In this document: piece by piece, positions 20,499 through 64,000 of the stretch
How the letters are laid out: the number at the start of each line of letters is the position of its first letter
Numbering within the stretch: position 1 is the stretch's first letter
Source: an uncultured Clostridia bacterium
GTDB lineage: Bacteria > Bacillota > Clostridia > Christensenellales > UBA1242
DNA length: 64,000 nt
NCBI GenBank assembly: GCA_947649575.1
Contig: CANSRZ010000005.1
Location: forward strand, 62,001 to 126,000
Direction of reading: 5' to 3'
The notes under the pieces: model-generated
What the model was told of the DNA's origin: nothing
The model's database searches: none
What the model saw: only the letters and a program-made list of their open reading frames with translations
Translations under genes and position numbers: made by a program

Positions 20499-21335
20499 TT
20501 AGGCTTGAAAGAAACAATAGCCATAGCATTTTGCTCCTACATGTGAGCCAACAATGCAACCGATTTCACATGTGTTAACCTCTTGTGAATTATTGCCTAT
20601 TTTAGGCTGTTGCTTTGCATAAACTTCCTCAATCTTTGCCTGATTGTCTGTATGCAAAAGATAGAGTGGGCGAGTTGTGTCCATATTTTTCAAGTTATCC
20701 AAAAGATAAGCATCCGCTTTAACTGACCCCATACATTTGGCAACATTTACAACTTTGCCGTCAACTATTGAAACGATAGGCTTGATGTTAAGCATTGAGC
20801 CTATTGCAGCACTTGCGCCTGAAAGACGACCACTTGCTTTAAGATATTTAAGGTCATTGATAACAGCAAAAAGTTTAACCTTTTCGCGCAGTTCATAAAA
20901 CTTAGCTTTAATCTTTTCAATATCGCTTTCTGTTTGAGCAAATTTTGCAAGCTCAACAATTAAAGCGCCAGTCGCGATTGTTGCGCCTTTTCCCTCTTCT
21001 ATAAATACGTTTTTCATGCCAAGGTCATCAGCTGCCATTTGAGCTTGTATTTTTGTTTGAGAAAGTTCCATAGAAATCACAACGGTGATAACAAAGATAT
21101 CTTTTTTGTTGTAAAATTCTTTATAGATTTCTTCAAATTTATATGCGTTTGGCATTGATGTTTTTGGAACTAATCCAGTGCTTGCCATTTTGCTATAGAA
21201 CTCACGAGTCGATAAACCGTCAGGATAAATATCCTCGCCAAAACGAACCTCAATTGGTACAATTTTGACATTATATTTTTCTTGTAAATCTTCTGGTATG
21301 TCAGTTGAGGCATCTGTCACGAATACAAATTTCAT
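20499..21335 (-). CDS. DegV family fatty-acid-binding protein (paralogue 1)
   Basis: DegV/FakB proteins hold a fatty acid for phosphorylation by FakA. At 278 residues it is full length, starting FVTDASTDIPEDLQEKYNVK, with GLVPKTSMPNAYKFEEIY and LKYLKASGRLSGASAAIGSM, the family's substrate loop, then SMLNIKPIVSIVDGKV. AAAAAGGAGATTT precedes ATG. This is one of three DegV genes in the window (others at 26265 and 28058). Confidence 0.92.
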   Translation of the reverse strand: MKFVFVTDASTDIPEDLQEKYNVKIVPIEVRFGEDIYPDGLSTREFYSKMASTGLVPKTSMPNAYKFEEIYKEFYNKKDIFVITVVISMELSQTKIQAQMAADDLGMKNVFIEEGKGATIATGALIVELAKFAQTESDIEKIKAKFYELREKVKLFAVINDLKYLKASGRLSGASAAIGSMLNIKPIVSIVDGKVVNVAKCMGSVKADAYLLDNLKNMDTTRPLYLLHTDNQAKIEEVYAKQQPKIGNNSQEVNTCEIGCIVGSHVGAKCYGYCFFQA

Positions 21336-22659: not shown

Positions 22660-22690
22660 TTGACTAAAAGGACGAAAATTTTATATACTA
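22660..22690 (+). promoter_or_regulatory. Promoter of GLUG surface gene 1
   Basis: TTGACT, 18 bases, TATACT, then AAAGAGGTGAAA before ATG 22721. The GLUG surface gene at 63477 has the same -35, spacing, -10 and ribosome site. Confidence 0.7.
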
Positions 22691-22720
22691 AAATCGTAAA
22701 TTAAATAAAGAGGTGAAACA

Positions 22721-25341
22721 ATGAATAAAACAAATTCAAAGTTATCCACATCGATGAGACAAAAGAATAAAAGAAATATAATAGTATCTCTTCTCGCAAT
22801 TATAACAGCTGGAATAATCGCGGGGGGGGGTACTTTTTTAGCACCCATTTCGCTTCGCGAAATGTAAACGAAAGTTATCCACAACCCGAGCAAACCCAAG
22901 GCGCTACTCAGCCAAATGACACAAGTAAATATTGGGGGGAAGAGGGTTATGATTATGCTAGCCACCTTTGGTCAGGAAGTGGAACAGAAACTGACCCATG
23001 GCTTATCCAAACACCACAAGACCTTGCTTGCCTTTCATGGCGAATTTATAATGACAATGTAACAGACGAAAGGCATAAAACATGGGAAGAGAATAAATAT
23101 CAAAAATGGAATTATTTTTATCCAGGATTCTATTTTAAACAAACAGCAAATATTGATATATCTGATTATTGGTGGGCATCTATAGGCAAGCGTATAGATG
23201 ATACAACATCTTACAGTTATACATATTATTTATATTATAAATTTTCAGGCAATTATGATGGCAATGGGTATACAGTTTCAGGCATGTTTACTTCAGTTGA
23301 AAAAGGAAGGAATAATGGCTTGTTTGAATATGTGAGTGGCTTATACTCATCATCAATTGAAGCAAGCATAAAAAATCTTGGCTTGATAAATGGAAATATT
23401 GAAGGAATGAGCGGGATTGTAAGCGATGCTTTTTATGTTACTATAGAAAATTGTTATAATGAAAATGATGTCACTAATGATAATGGTTATTATTCCGGCG
23501 GAATTATTGGACGTGCTTTTAGATCAAAAATATTAAGATGTTATAATGTGGGCTCTATAAAAAAAGGTGGAGGTATTGTAGGCAGAGTAGAACCATATAC
23601 AGATATTATAAATTGCTATAATACTGGATCGTGTAGCAGCGGTATAATTAAAGGTATTTATGGAGATAGTTTTAATTTCTTAAATATAACGATAAGCAAC
23701 TGTTATAATAAGGGTGTTCTTAGTGGAGCGGTAGATCTAGGAGGAATTGTAGGATATCTTGAATGTTTGATTACTGACGCGACTTTAGAGCAAAGAGATT
23801 TTTTGAAAACTTTAGTATTTACAAACTGTTTTAATTTTGGTAATGTTATTGAAACTGAAACAAATCAACATTGTGGTGGTATTGTTGGGCTTACAGGCTC
23901 TAATGTTCAGGTATCAAGCTTTATGGATTTTGACTACGGTGGCTATTTTATAGGTGTAACGAATTCTTATTATGGCGGTGATTGCACTTTGGATAAAGGT
24001 GTTGGTTATGATGAGACTGATAATAGTATAAAACTTGATAATTTGGCTGATTTGGTTAAAGATAAATCGTGGTATTCAAGTGATTCACAAACAAATGGAG
24101 CAGCAACTTGGAATAGTGAATATCCTTGGGATTTTGATAATGTTTGGGGAATACATCAAGATTATAATGACGGCTTTCCTACATTTAAAAATTTGTTACC
24201 TCCACCAACAAATTGGACTCAAGTTGCGGACACTTCGTGGGAGGGCGACGGCACTGAGGCAAGCCCTTACATAATCGACACGGCTGAAAAGTTGGCAGGC
24301 ATTGCTTATGATACAAACAATGGAAACGGTTTTAACAATAAATTTTTTAAGCAGACGGCTAATATAAATTTAAGTAGATATGAATGGACACCTATTGGAA
24401 AAGATATGTATAATAGTTTTTATGGAAGTTATGATGGTGGAGGATATACAATTAGCCATTTAAGGTTAGAAGATAATTCTGAATATTATTTTCTTGGATT
24501 GTTCGGTATGATACTTTCTGGTAATAACGGAATGTTACAAAATGTTAATATAACAGAATCTTATATTACAACTTCAAAAGTTTCAACTATTGGTTCGATA
24601 GCGGGATGTGCAGGTGTTCCAGTTAAAAATTGTTCTTCATCAGCTTATTTAACTTCTACTAGTGGAAGCGTTGGAGGCATAGTTGGATATGACTCTTCTG
24701 GGATAAATATAGAGGGTTGTTATTTTACGGGAACTATTATTGCGACAAAAAACAATGCAGTGGCTGGTGGTATAGTTGGGATTGGTGAAGGCGTTTATAC
24801 AGAAATAAAAAACTGTCATGTATCAAATGCAAAAATATCTGCAGCTTGCGTTGGTGGAATAGCGGGCGAAATGTATAACATGAGTAATAAAGTAAGAAAT
24901 TGCACAGTTTCAGCTGTATTAGAATCATCTGGTTGTGTTGGTGGTGTAGTTGGCAGGCGTTGTAATTTGATTGAAAATTGTTTTGTAAATGCTGAAATTG
25001 TATTCACAGGAACAGATACTTCTAAAATAGGGATGTTCTACGGCGCTGATAATTATTCAATAGAAATAACTGTTAACAATTGCGCATTTATTGGTGGGAG
25101 TAATATAAAAACAAGTACTTTCACAGGAGAATTAGATGCTGCAACTGTATTGGATTTAAAAAATTGTTATGGTTTAATAAATCAAAAAGGATATTTTTCA
25201 GACGGTGATTTTGCTGGTTTTGGAATTGTTGCTGGCATGAATGACGGTTTGCCTTTGCAGAGGGCGTTGTTCTTTATGGCTGAGTTCGCTCCTGATATTG
25301 AGGTTGGCTGGTTTGATAGAAACGGTTTTGAAAAAATTTAA
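22721..25341 (+). CDS. GLUG-repeat surface protein 1, frame broken at a nine-G tract (putative phase-variable)
   Basis: ATG 22721 reads MNKTNSKLSTSMRQKNKR, then a hydrophobic signal/anchor helix in which a run of nine G (22822-22830) occurs. As printed the frame ends at TAA 22865 after 48 residues. The long downstream frame (to 25341) is restored by one more G, or two fewer, giving about 873 residues. The mature part starts with QGATQPNDTSKYWGEEGYDY, shared with the 63477 gene, and holds many GLUG-type repeats (GGIVGR, CYNxG, GGIVGY). No LPxTG is seen. It is probably displayed outside, anchored by the N-terminal helix. Confidence 0.8.
22822..22830 (+). repeat. Nine-G homopolymer in GLUG surface gene 1
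   Basis: G9 in the codons for the signal/anchor helix. Length 9 is off-frame; 10 or 7 would be on-frame. Confidence 0.85.
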
Positions 25342-26264: not shown

Positions 26265-27125
26265 ATGAATAAAGTAAAAATAATAACTGACAATTGTTCA
26301 AGTTTATCTAAAAAAGAACTCGCTGAGTTAGGCGTTGATTATGTTCAAATGTTTGTAAATGTTAATGATATTTCTTGCGAGGCATTTGATTATCCTTGTG
26401 AGGATCCTAAACAATTTTATCAAGACATTGCTCATGCTGAAAAATGTTCAACAAGTTGCGTGAACACTCAAACTTTTGTTGATGCTTTTGAGAAATATGT
26501 CAAGGACGGCGTTGATGTTTTTTATGTGGGACTTTCAGGTGGGCTTAGCTGTACTTATGATAATGCACTTCATGCGGCAATCGAAATCAATGAAAAATAC
26601 GGCGAACATGTTTATGTAGCTGACAGTTTATCAGGAAGCTATGGCATTGGCAAGATGGTGAGATTTGCTGTAAAACTAGCTAATAACGGAAAAAGCGCAA
26701 AAGAGATATATGATGCAATTCATAAAAACAATATGAAAGTGCTTGCTTTGTTTGCGCCAGGAGATTTGAAGTTTTTGGTTAAGTGCGGACGTTTAAGCAA
26801 ACTTGCGGGCAGTGTTGGTTCATTACTTAAAATTGTTCCTATTATTTCTACTGATGAGGATGGCAAGCTTAAAGTTATTTCAAAAGCGATTGGGCGTAAA
26901 CGTGCTATGAAAACGATTGAAAGCATGATTTTAGAACAAGCCGATTTGACGACTCCTGAAACAATTTATATTGGGCATACTGGGCAGGAGGAAGAAGCAA
27001 AAGAGCTGGCAGAAATTCTTAAAACGCATGCGCCTTGCAAAGAAATAGAAATCGGCTGGATTGACTACACAATGGGTTGTGCTTGCGGGCCAGAAACGCT
27101 TGCTGTGTTTGTAACAAAAAAATAA
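26265..27125 (+). CDS. DegV family fatty-acid-binding protein (paralogue 2)
   Basis: A 286-residue DegV/FakB with IITDNCSSLSKKELAELGVD, STSCVNTQTFVDAFEKYVKD, VADSLSGSYGIGKMVRFAVK and the loop LKFLVKCGRLSKLAGSVGSL, then HTGQEEEAKELAEIL. Ends with GCACGPETLAVF. AAGGAGTTG precedes ATG. Monocistronic; the downstream long hairpin at 27226-27274 is shared with the convergent SDR gene. More diverged from paralogues 1 and 3 than they are from each other. Confidence 0.92.
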   Translation: MNKVKIITDNCSSLSKKELAELGVDYVQMFVNVNDISCEAFDYPCEDPKQFYQDIAHAEKCSTSCVNTQTFVDAFEKYVKDGVDVFYVGLSGGLSCTYDNALHAAIEINEKYGEHVYVADSLSGSYGIGKMVRFAVKLANNGKSAKEIYDAIHKNNMKVLALFAPGDLKFLVKCGRLSKLAGSVGSLLKIVPIISTDEDGKLKVISKAIGRKRAMKTIESMILEQADLTTPETIYIGHTGQEEEAKELAEILKTHAPCKEIEIGWIDYTMGCACGPETLAVFVTKK

Positions 27126-27323: not shown

Positions 27324-28070
27324 TTATTCAAACAAAACTGCACCGCCGTTGACGGAGAGGGTGTGACCAGTGATGTATGATGCTCCGTCAGAGGCAAGGA
27401 AGAGTGCGGATGAAGCAATCTCTTCTGGTCTGCCTGAGCGATTAAGCGGAATATGTTTGCAAAGTGCTTTTATTTCGCTAGGTGAATAGCATGCCGTCAT
27501 TGGCGTTGCAATGTTGCCTGGGGCTATGGCATTCACGCGAATATTAAAACTTCCCACTTCTTTTGCAAGAGATTCTGTCAAAGCAATAATGCCTGCTTTT
27601 GCAGCAGAGTAAGGAGCGCTACAACTTGAACCCTCTTCGCCATAAATTGATGAGATATTGATGATATTTCCATGCTTTTGTTTTATAAAATATTTCAAGC
27701 ATTCACGATTGCATATGATTGTTCCTAAAAGGTTGATGTCCAGAACATTTATAATATCTTCGTCTGATTTTTCTATCAATAAAGTTTCAGATTCAGCAAT
27801 GCCTGCGTTGGCAACAAGACAATCTATGTATTCAAAGTCAGCAAAAATTTTAGCAAATGTTTTTGCTATTTCTTTTGGCTTTGAAATGTCAAGCTTATAT
27901 GCTTTTATGCTCACGTTTTCATGCGAAAGCTCTTTGATAAGTTTGTCGCAGTTTTGGTTATGATAGGTGAGAGCAAGATTATAGCCAGCTTGTGCAAATG
28001 CTTTTGCTGTTGCTGAGCCTATTCCGCCTGCTGCTCCTGTGATGATAACTGTTTTTTTTAACATATCCAT
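27324..28070 (-). CDS. Short-chain dehydrogenase/reductase (FabG-like)
   Basis: A 248-residue NAD(P)-dependent oxidoreductase. VIITGAAGGIGSATA is the nucleotide loop, LVANAGIAES the NAG motif, INISSIYGEEGSSCSAPYSA with YSAAK the catalytic Ser/Tyr/Lys, and VNAIAPGNIATPM follows. It resembles FabG 3-ketoacyl reductases. The start overlaps the degV stop by 13 bases, so the two are translated together, suggesting a shared fatty-acid theme; that link is inference. Confidence 0.9.
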   Translation of the reverse strand: MDMLKKTVIITGAAGGIGSATAKAFAQAGYNLALTYHNQNCDKLIKELSHENVSIKAYKLDISKPKEIAKTFAKIFADFEYIDCLVANAGIAESETLLIEKSDEDIINVLDINLLGTIICNRECLKYFIKQKHGNIINISSIYGEEGSSCSAPYSAAKAGIIALTESLAKEVGSFNIRVNAIAPGNIATPMTACYSPSEIKALCKHIPLNRSGRPEEIASSALFLASDGASYITGHTLSVNGGAVLFE

Positions 28071-28879
28071 GCTACTCCTATTGCTGGGCCTATATGTGCG
28101 GCAATAACTGGCCCAAGTTCGCCCTCATAAGTAGGCACTCCGTTAAATTTGTCTTTGATTGCACTTTTAAGCTGGTCAAAAAATTTTGTGTTGGCAATAT
28201 GAATTAAAAATAATTTTTTGATATTTTGCGGAATCATTGCTATTATCTCCTGAATTGCTTTTGCAATGCCCAATGTCTTTTTGGCACAGCCTAAAACTCC
28301 TGCTTTGAACGAAAGAATAGGTTTTAAGTTTAAAAGCGTGCCAAGTGTTGCACTAACTTTGCCAATTCGTCCGCCACGTTTAAGATATTCTAAACTGTCT
28401 GGCACAAAAGTTATTTGGCTGTTCAATTGAAGTTTTTCAATCTCTTCAACAATAGCCTGGCGGGTGTAACCTTTGTTAATCATTTCAATGGTTTCCATAA
28501 TATATCCAAAAGTTACTTGTGCGCAAGATTTTGAGTCAATGATAGTTATTTTCTCAGGACAAGAGCATTGCGCTTTTGCTAAGTTTGCCACGCTGTAAGT
28601 TCCAGACAGGGTGTAAGAAATTGTATAAACTATTGCTTCGTTGCCATCTTCAATAACTTTATTAAATTCGTCAATAAAAACTTGAAGTGATGGCTGACTG
28701 GTTTTTGGGAAAATCTTTGTTCTAGTAAATTTTTCAAAAAAACTATCAAAGCTTCCTGGATAACCCTCATCAAACTCGTCATCATCAAACAGAACTCGCA
28801 GAGGAATAACTTTTATATCATTTGCTTTTGCAAATTCCATAGGAATATATGCGGTGGAATCAGTTAAAATTTTAATCAT
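28058..28879 (-). CDS. DegV family fatty-acid-binding protein (paralogue 3)
   Basis: A 273-residue DegV/FakB: ILTDSTAYIPMEFAKANDIK, TKIFPKTSQPSLQVFIDEFN, then LEYLKRGGRIGKVSATLGTL with LLNLKPILSFKAGVL. Ends GAAHIGPAIG-like (VIAAHIGPAIGVAWIC), matching the conserved HxGPG end. AAGGAGTTAT precedes the start. First gene of a two-gene operon with the SDR. Confidence 0.92.
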   Translation of the reverse strand: MIKILTDSTAYIPMEFAKANDIKVIPLRVLFDDDEFDEGYPGSFDSFFEKFTRTKIFPKTSQPSLQVFIDEFNKVIEDGNEAIVYTISYTLSGTYSVANLAKAQCSCPEKITIIDSKSCAQVTFGYIMETIEMINKGYTRQAIVEEIEKLQLNSQITFVPDSLEYLKRGGRIGKVSATLGTLLNLKPILSFKAGVLGCAKKTLGIAKAIQEIIAMIPQNIKKLFLIHIANTKFFDQLKSAIKDKFNGVPTYEGELGPVIAAHIGPAIGVAWIC

Positions 28880-63381: not shown

Positions 63382-63437
63382 AATTAAAATTTTTCACATT
63401 TTTTTGTCAATTTGTTTGACTAAAATCTCTTATATGG

Positions 63438-63468
63438 TTTATACTGAAAATATATTTATTTTAAAGAG
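63438..63468 (+). promoter_or_regulatory. Promoter of GLUG surface gene 3
   Basis: TTGACT (63416), 18 bases, TATACT (63440), then AAAGAGGTGAAA before ATG 63477; same layout as at 22660. Confidence 0.7.
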
Positions 63469-63476
63469 GTGAAAGT

Positions 63477-64000
63477 ATGAAATTGAATAAAAATTGTAAA
63501 AAATCCACCTTGTTAGGCGGGGGGGGGATTTAGCTTCCGCTAAAAAATCTTTAAAAACAAAATTAATATCAATTGCTATCGCTTTCACAACAACCCTTGC
63601 CTTAACCCTTGGCTTAGTCTTTGGACTAGGCAATTTTTCGTCTAAGCCAAATTTAGACCAGCCAGAGCAGTCAACCCAAGGAGCAACTCAGCCAAATGAC
63701 ACAACAAAATATTGGGGCGAAGAAGGTTATGATTATGCCAATCACCGTTGGGCAGGTAGCGGAACAGAAGCAGACCCATGGCTTATCCAAACCGAACAAG
63801 ACCTTGCCTGCCTTTCTTGGAGGATATACAATGACCAAGTGACTGATTCAAGCCATAACATTGTGTATGATAAATATAATAATCTTTTTTATTTAGGTTT
63901 TTATTTTAAACAAACAGCAAATTTGGATGTATCTGCATACTATTGGACACCGATTGGTGTTATTTATGATCGTTCAAATACAGAGGCGCTTAGAAAGTTT
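63477..64000 (+). CDS. GLUG-repeat surface protein 3, frame broken at a nine-G tract; 3' end outside the window
   Basis: ATG 63477 reads MKLNKNCKKSTLLGGGG, then ATT and TAG at 63531: 18 residues as printed. With one more G in the tract at 63519-63527 the frame continues DLASAKKSLKTKLISIAIAF, a signal/anchor helix, then PEQSTQGATQPNDTTKYWGE as in gene 1, and stays open to the end of the window. GLUG-type pattern is expected beyond. The tract precedes the helix here, while in gene 1 it lies within it. Confidence 0.75.
63519..63527 (+). repeat. Nine-G homopolymer in GLUG surface gene 3
   Basis: G9; 10 or 7 would be on-frame, exactly as for gene 1. Confidence 0.85.

Follow-up and report, generated by a model that had tools for sequence, protein, structure and literature searches.

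Poly-G tracts as candidate slipped-strand switches of a GLUG surface-protein family in an uncultured Clostridia bacterium

The 64,000-nucleotide stretch analyzed here, referred to as the window, is part of contig CANSRZ010000005.1 of an uncultured Clostridia bacterium and carries a run of nine G (G9) in the early codons of a gene for a GLUG-motif surface protein. This tract is very probably (about 0.85) one of roughly two dozen slipped-strand poly-G contingency loci in the genome. The reading is strongly supported by 24 tracts in the genome, 16 of which are distributed over one family of surface-protein genes, each gene having one. It is supported as well by the mixture of in-frame and out-of-frame lengths in 13 paralogs of a sister species and by the presence of promoter-spacer tracts across the order.

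The GLUG gene of the window and its tract

The elements of the gene are arranged as follows.

22660..22689, + strand: fixed-spacer promoter TTGACT-N18-TATACT of the GLUG gene, without poly-G
22710..22715, + strand: ribosome-binding site GAGGTG of the GLUG gene
22721..22867, + strand: ATG start with a basic leader and a hydrophobic helix; the frame crosses the tract and ends at a stop, which is the out-of-frame state as printed
22822..22830, + strand: G9 tract, the proposed phase-variation switch
22831..25341, + strand: GLUG surface-protein frame that stays open downstream of the tract for 836 codons, up to the stop at 25339-25341
24661..24741, + strand: best GLUG motif of the gene

From the ATG at 22721, the printed frame ends at 22865-22867 after 48 codons, tract included, and the resulting peptide consists of a basic leader followed by a hydrophobic stretch. 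An alternative frame is open from the first G of the tract to 25341, with 836 codons past the last G. Its piece 22903-25338 was matched by the Pfam family Glug (PF07581) with an E-value of 5.6e-12 and 45.7 bits against a gathering cut-off of 20.5, which places the product among the GLUG-motif proteins; such repeats presumably build an extended repeat surface protein. The closest match of the protein in another genome shares 38% identity with it. A preliminary description of this DNA had located nine G at 22822-22830, had seen in them the only break between a start region with promoter, ribosome site and signal helix and the open GLUG frame, and had calculated that one G more or two fewer would restore the protein. 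The position is exact, no other break was found between the two parts, and the arithmetic agrees with the coordinates. The proposal that the printed state is the off form also fits, since translation would stop after 48 codons.

Number and placement of tracts in the genome

The G9 runs of the window are not due to chance. In this sequence of about 35% guanine plus cytosine (G+C), 67 G4, 10 G5 and four G6 runs were counted, no G7 or G8, and two G9, and the run-length distribution is bimodal. Markov models of order 2, 3 and 5 were trained on the window minus its long runs and 60 windows were simulated with each, giving an expectation of 0 (order 2), 0.57 (order 3) and 0.57 (order 5) G or C runs of at least nine per 1.09 Mb. 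The 1.09-Mb assembly contains 28 overlapping G9 matches, corresponding to 24 distinct tracts of at least nine G, against about 0.6 expected. These comprise 21 G9, two G10 and one G11, and in number and length they lie far above chance, as is expected of homopolymer contingency loci.

Most of these tracts sit where a change in length could alter a reading frame or the spacing of a promoter. Thirteen of the 24 are found inside promoters of the form TTGACAC-Gn-...TTGC-TA(T/C)nnT, in which Gn is G9 to G11 and the spacer measures 16 base pairs (bp) at eight sites, 17 at two, 18 at two and 19 at one. Five more belong to promoters read on the C strand, TTGACA-NNN-C9-N-TATAAT, with spacers of 15, 15, 16, 19 and 19 bp. 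Three tracts occupy early codons of GLUG genes, two of them in the window (22822 and 63519) and one on the minus strand of locus L011 (9396-9404). The remaining three are a C9 just upstream of a promoter (L011 4269-4277), an intergenic tract (L017) and a tract at the end of a contig (L025). A poly-G run between the -35 and -10 boxes ahead of a surface gene, the arrangement of meningococcal porA, is thus present at the 13 G-strand sites and not at the window gene. The single coding tract of the preliminary description is real, but the main form in the genome is the promoter spacer, which its reader had not seen.

One switch per gene in a GLUG family

The tracts are concentrated on one gene family. 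Downstream of each of the 13 G-strand promoter tracts, a signal-anchored GLUG-family gene begins 125-321 nucleotides (nt) on, at the first start codon accompanied by a sequence resembling a ribosome site. Eleven of the 13 encoded proteins match the window protein (blastp, E-values from 2e-116 to 1e-6); the first gene of L020 was assigned to the family by its Glug hits (C4:50-52 kb), and the first gene of L013 by blastp to its siblings. The three genes with a coding tract share fixed-spacer promoters, TTGACT-N18-TATA(C/A)T, that are devoid of poly-G, so that each of the 16 genes has one switch. Counted from the domain side, 14 frames of the genome pass the Glug threshold and 11 of them have a tract in the promoter or the N-terminus. 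Two frames are without a tract nearby. One is at C4:~20-22 kb; the other, at C3:~16 kb, has an unread 5' end, but no G9 is listed for the 3.7-50 kb part of C3. The last frame is truncated where its contig stops (C1:248 kb).

The second tract-bearing GLUG gene of the window lies at its end.

63416..63445, + strand: promoter TTGACT-N18-TATACT of the second GLUG gene
63477..64000, + strand: second GLUG gene, which has an N-terminal tract of its own and continues past the window (L023) and off the contig end
63519..63527, + strand: G9 tract, codons 15-17 of the second GLUG gene, out of frame as printed

The DNA around the tract of the window gene is near-identical to that of a paralog on C1, while the two proteins are only 44% identical; the 5' end that bears the switch looks as though it had been copied.

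The promoter cassette and other tract-bearing sites

The 13 G-strand promoters align as one cassette, and in nine of them inspection by eye showed, upstream, the -35 region repeated in inverted form as a GTGTCAACTGAAA-like sequence. When six loci were tested for inverted repeats, arms of 12-15 nt were found, at 93-100% in four and at 83% in one. In the inverted repeat CCCGTGTCAACT/AGTTGACACGGG, whose arms are 22-28 nt apart, the -35 box and the first Gs are mirrored. Cassettes with this repeat were found at the following places.

L014 4335-4386: promoter cassette with CCCGTGTCAACT/AGTTGACACGGG
L016 4264-4315: promoter cassette with CCCGTGTCAACT/AGTTGACACGGG
L024 4198-4249: promoter cassette with CCCGTGTCAACT/AGTTGACACGGG
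L027 4133-4184: promoter cassette with CCCGTGTCAACT/AGTTGACACGGG

Candidate roles for the repeat are an operator, a hairpin that aids slippage or the remnant of a divergent promoter. Inversion of the promoter through this repeat is unlikely, the -10 box being outside it. In L011, the upstream arm itself bears a C9. The exact promoter string was found in 0 of the 40 other genomes of the genus, in which the general architecture alone recurs.

Some of the C-strand promoter tracts precede genes of other kinds. In L009, a C9 spacer tract (148-156) lies before a small protein (208-897) that joins a sigma-70 region-4-like part to an RNA polymerase alpha C-terminal domain and is perhaps a phase-variable transcription regulator. 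Those of L026 (4154-4162) and L022 (4237-4245) are located upstream of DnaG primase and of a glycosyltransferase; a tract before the primase is odd, this gene being essential. In the window, three separate open reading frames near the GLUG gene (20499-21335, 26265-27125 and 28058-28879) encode what we take from their sequences to be DegV-family fatty-acid-binding proteins.

Tracts in relatives within the genus

G9 runs were present in 32 of 41 sampled genomes of the genus. Reading frames were compared for all 14 tracts of the sister species G023, all 27 of genome G002 and 23 of the 26 of genome G001, the 25 listed rows of G019 being set aside; tracts followed by a downstream frame shorter than 300 nt that does not run off the contig were left out of the frame table (L090 of G023, eight of the 27 in G002 and 12 of the 23 in G001).

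In G023, the tract of 13 paralogs follows a short conserved start in one common context and is found at three lengths. Counted from the shared ATG, five G10 genes are off, five G11 genes are in frame and one is off, and two G12 genes are off. Overall, five of the 13 are in frame and eight are not, with the qualification that in two off genes a possible TTG start nearer the tract is in frame, that a further ATG in the other frame exists in one in-frame gene, and that one off gene is cut by the contig end 42 nt past the tract. The 14 tracts of this species, with 37 overlapping G9 matches, are without exception on the contigs' minus strand, which is not so in the other tract-rich genomes.

Mixed states were also observed in the two other genomes. 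Among the coding tracts of G002, seven G9 are in frame and eight off, one G10 is in frame and one off, and two have no start that could be found; in three off genes, an ATG immediately ahead of the tract is in frame. Of the 11 rows kept for G001, seven are in frame, two off and two without a start. Direct comparison was possible for a serine hydrolase (80% identical between G002 and G001), in which both genomes have a tract near the start, G10 and off in G002, G9 and in frame in G001. In the same way, a PNPOx-like gene (69% identical) is in frame in G002 and off in G001, with G9 in both. The differences in length and state among relatives that are expected of contingency loci are hence found in the paralogs of G023 and of G002 and in two G002/G001 pairs. 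Two scans of viral contigs returned no same-species or near allele.

GLUG relatives and the promoter pattern beyond the genus

A relative, locus L058 (CAOJZM010000010.1, listed in the NCBI taxonomy as 'uncultured Christensenella sp.', order Christensenellales), has a G9 just before its GLUG domain. Its candidate ATG, 83 nt upstream and lacking a clear ribosome site, is in another frame according to an offset counted by eye. The L058 and window proteins share 32% identity in the best segment and 39% in a pairwise alignment, and it was from this one relative that the host was assigned to a Christensenellales-type bacterium.

The promoter form is spread more widely. The pattern TTGA-N2-12-G8-N0-9-TATA was found at 48 places in 14 of the 41 genus genomes (five in the reversed control) and at 117 places in 21 of 121 genomes of the order, belonging to 17 of 81 genera (two in the control). 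The latter count includes a few overlapping rows, 108 of its matches begin with TTGAC, and the genome under study supplies nine. Outside the order, the stricter TTGAC form gave eight matches in eight of 298 genomes of the phylum (three in the control), which is near background; these 298 include nine of the same class, and the order and phylum counts are raw numbers from samples that differ in G+C. Twenty chosen stretches of four members of the order that belong to two other families (G142, G184 and G203 of f32, G210 of f15) hold 21 such promoters. A gene start was found for 19 of the 21, and a lipobox-type signal, judged by eye, opens 13 of these 19 genes. In one lipoprotein family of G184, otherwise alike promoters carry G8, G9 and G10.

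It appears rather probable, at a lower level of confidence than for the window tract, that poly-G slippage serves an entire order of uncultured gut bacteria, apparently of Christensenellales type, as a general means of diversifying the surface. One promoter design, TTGACA-Gn-TATAAT, would stand before different families of surface proteins, among them GLUG proteins and lipoproteins, across many genera; in the other design, the signal region would contain the tract, one per gene.

Points against and competing explanations

Several observations weigh against reading these tracts as contingency loci. Nine of the 41 genus genomes are without a G9. Several coding tracts of G001 and G002 lie in frame in non-surface genes (a HAD hydrolase, a glycosyltransferase, a PemK-like domain), and therefore not every poly-G tract of the genus need be a surface switch. 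In G002, the G9 of L114 (3055-3063) is in frame near the start of a protein that has a PemK/MazF-like domain; in G001, that of L130 (3097-3105) is in frame in a gene that by eye resembles thymidylate kinase, so some tracts lie in likely essential genes. A G or C run of at least eight was found in only three of 29 GLUG loci from other species, whose 5' ends were not always inside the fetched stretch, and the tract is thus not a fixed feature of GLUG genes. Loss of mismatch repair was rejected as a simple cause of unstable tracts, MutS being present in 40 of the 41 genomes. Finally, the three coding tracts of the genome are alike in length (G9) and in the phase by which they miss the frame, and the great majority of its tracts (21 of 24) are exactly G9; taken by itself, this genome could therefore reflect a miscalled length or a programmed frameshift.

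An assembly or base-call error, by which the true length would differ from the printed one and the gene would simply be intact, is an unlikely explanation overall. It would be the best rival for the window tract alone, because of the common length and off phase of the three coding tracts and because short-read drafts call for caution. In the accessible part of a report on a sequenced meningococcus, homopolymers are described as error-prone and draft short-read assemblies as needing care at such tracts (PMC4577077). Several contigs also terminate inside the repeated GLUG family. Contig ends at tracts had been considered as evidence of heterogeneity, a use that was dropped, as ends in repeated GLUG genes explain them equally well. 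However, a uniform miscall would throw the seven in-frame G9 coding tracts of G002 out of frame, and G023 shows three lengths with three phases in one context. Moreover, a single wrong length leaves the excess of 24 tracts and their promoter placement standing.

Programmed slippage of the ribosome or the polymerase on the G run, yielding a fixed share of full-length protein from invariant DNA, is less likely still. It would agree with the shared phase of the three coding tracts and with the same phase in eight of nine signal-peptide genes of G002, but it is inapplicable to the 13 promoter-spacer tracts, and five G023 paralogs are in frame without any shift. A decaying pseudogene, suggested by the broken printed frame, is the least probable, given a downstream frame that is intact over 836 codons, a Glug score above the cut-off and the same break at the same place in a paralog with only 44% protein identity.

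Proposed mechanism

Under the contingency-locus reading, replication slippage would add or remove G in either of two settings. In the coding form (the window gene, the 63.5-kb gene and the C1 paralog), tract length would decide whether the surface domain is read in the frame of the signal-anchor start. For the 13 additional GLUG-family genes, which have the promoter form, length would set the distance between the -35 and -10 boxes, 16-19 bp as printed, and hence the strength of transcription. The membrane-anchored GLUG-repeat surface proteins, about 16 in number, could then appear in a different combination on each cell, which would help the population against phage or host antibodies or when attachment sites change. 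The sequences establish the tracts with their placement and excess, the frames and spacers as printed, and the length differences among paralogs and species; we infer slippage within the population, an effect on expression, display at the surface and a benefit to the cell.

Known systems and meaning

Gram-negative mucosal pathogens are the main group in which phase variation by poly-G is known. In classical contingency loci of the coding type, the reading frame depends on a poly-G run early in the gene, and cwpV of Clostridioides difficile is switched by inversion. For meningococcal porA, the available text of PMC3899988 places the poly-G between the -10 and -35 boxes, where one base alters spacing and transcription. 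The promoters described here are alike in having poly-G in the spacer of a surface-protein promoter; they differ in forming 13 copies of one cassette on one gene family in a Bacillota-type host, and are known from sequence. Campylobacter jejuni and Neisseria meningitidis likewise have multiple hypermutable repeat tracts per genome, according to the portions consulted of PMC3025981 and PMC5084427, but they belong to another phylum, whereas the present tracts concern the GLUG family and are known from assemblies.

Candidatus Mycoplasma girerdii offers another parallel, with an uncultured small-genome host and a large repeat-switched family of BspA-like surface proteins, several genes of which are predicted to be off; it was discovered by metagenomics (PMC5476646, in the part at hand). 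In that case, the repeats are mostly dinucleotides, the evidence is at the level of reads, and the word 'promoter' is absent from the text available. Within Clostridia, Clostridioides difficile also has phase-variable surface and signaling genes; as far as the excerpted text of PMC9286219 goes, these are switched by DNA inversion through site-specific recombination and not by homopolymer slippage.

No literature linking GLUG proteins with phase variation was found, a weak absence given the thin coverage of subscription papers and preprints. In the same way, a search by titles and abstract openings, itself of incomplete coverage, returned nothing related on homopolymer switching in Christensenella or Christensenellales. 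The mechanism is known, while its scale, its two-way use (coding and promoter) on one surface family and its apparently Christensenellales-type host seem to be undescribed in the searchable literature.

Phase variation of these tracts can be checked now with existing metagenome reads. If the reading is true, this genome could in principle show about 2^16 surface states. The annotation of metagenome-assembled genomes of such species would call surface genes broken or intact by the chance of tract length, and part of the strain-to-strain difference at their surface would reflect switching rather than gene content.
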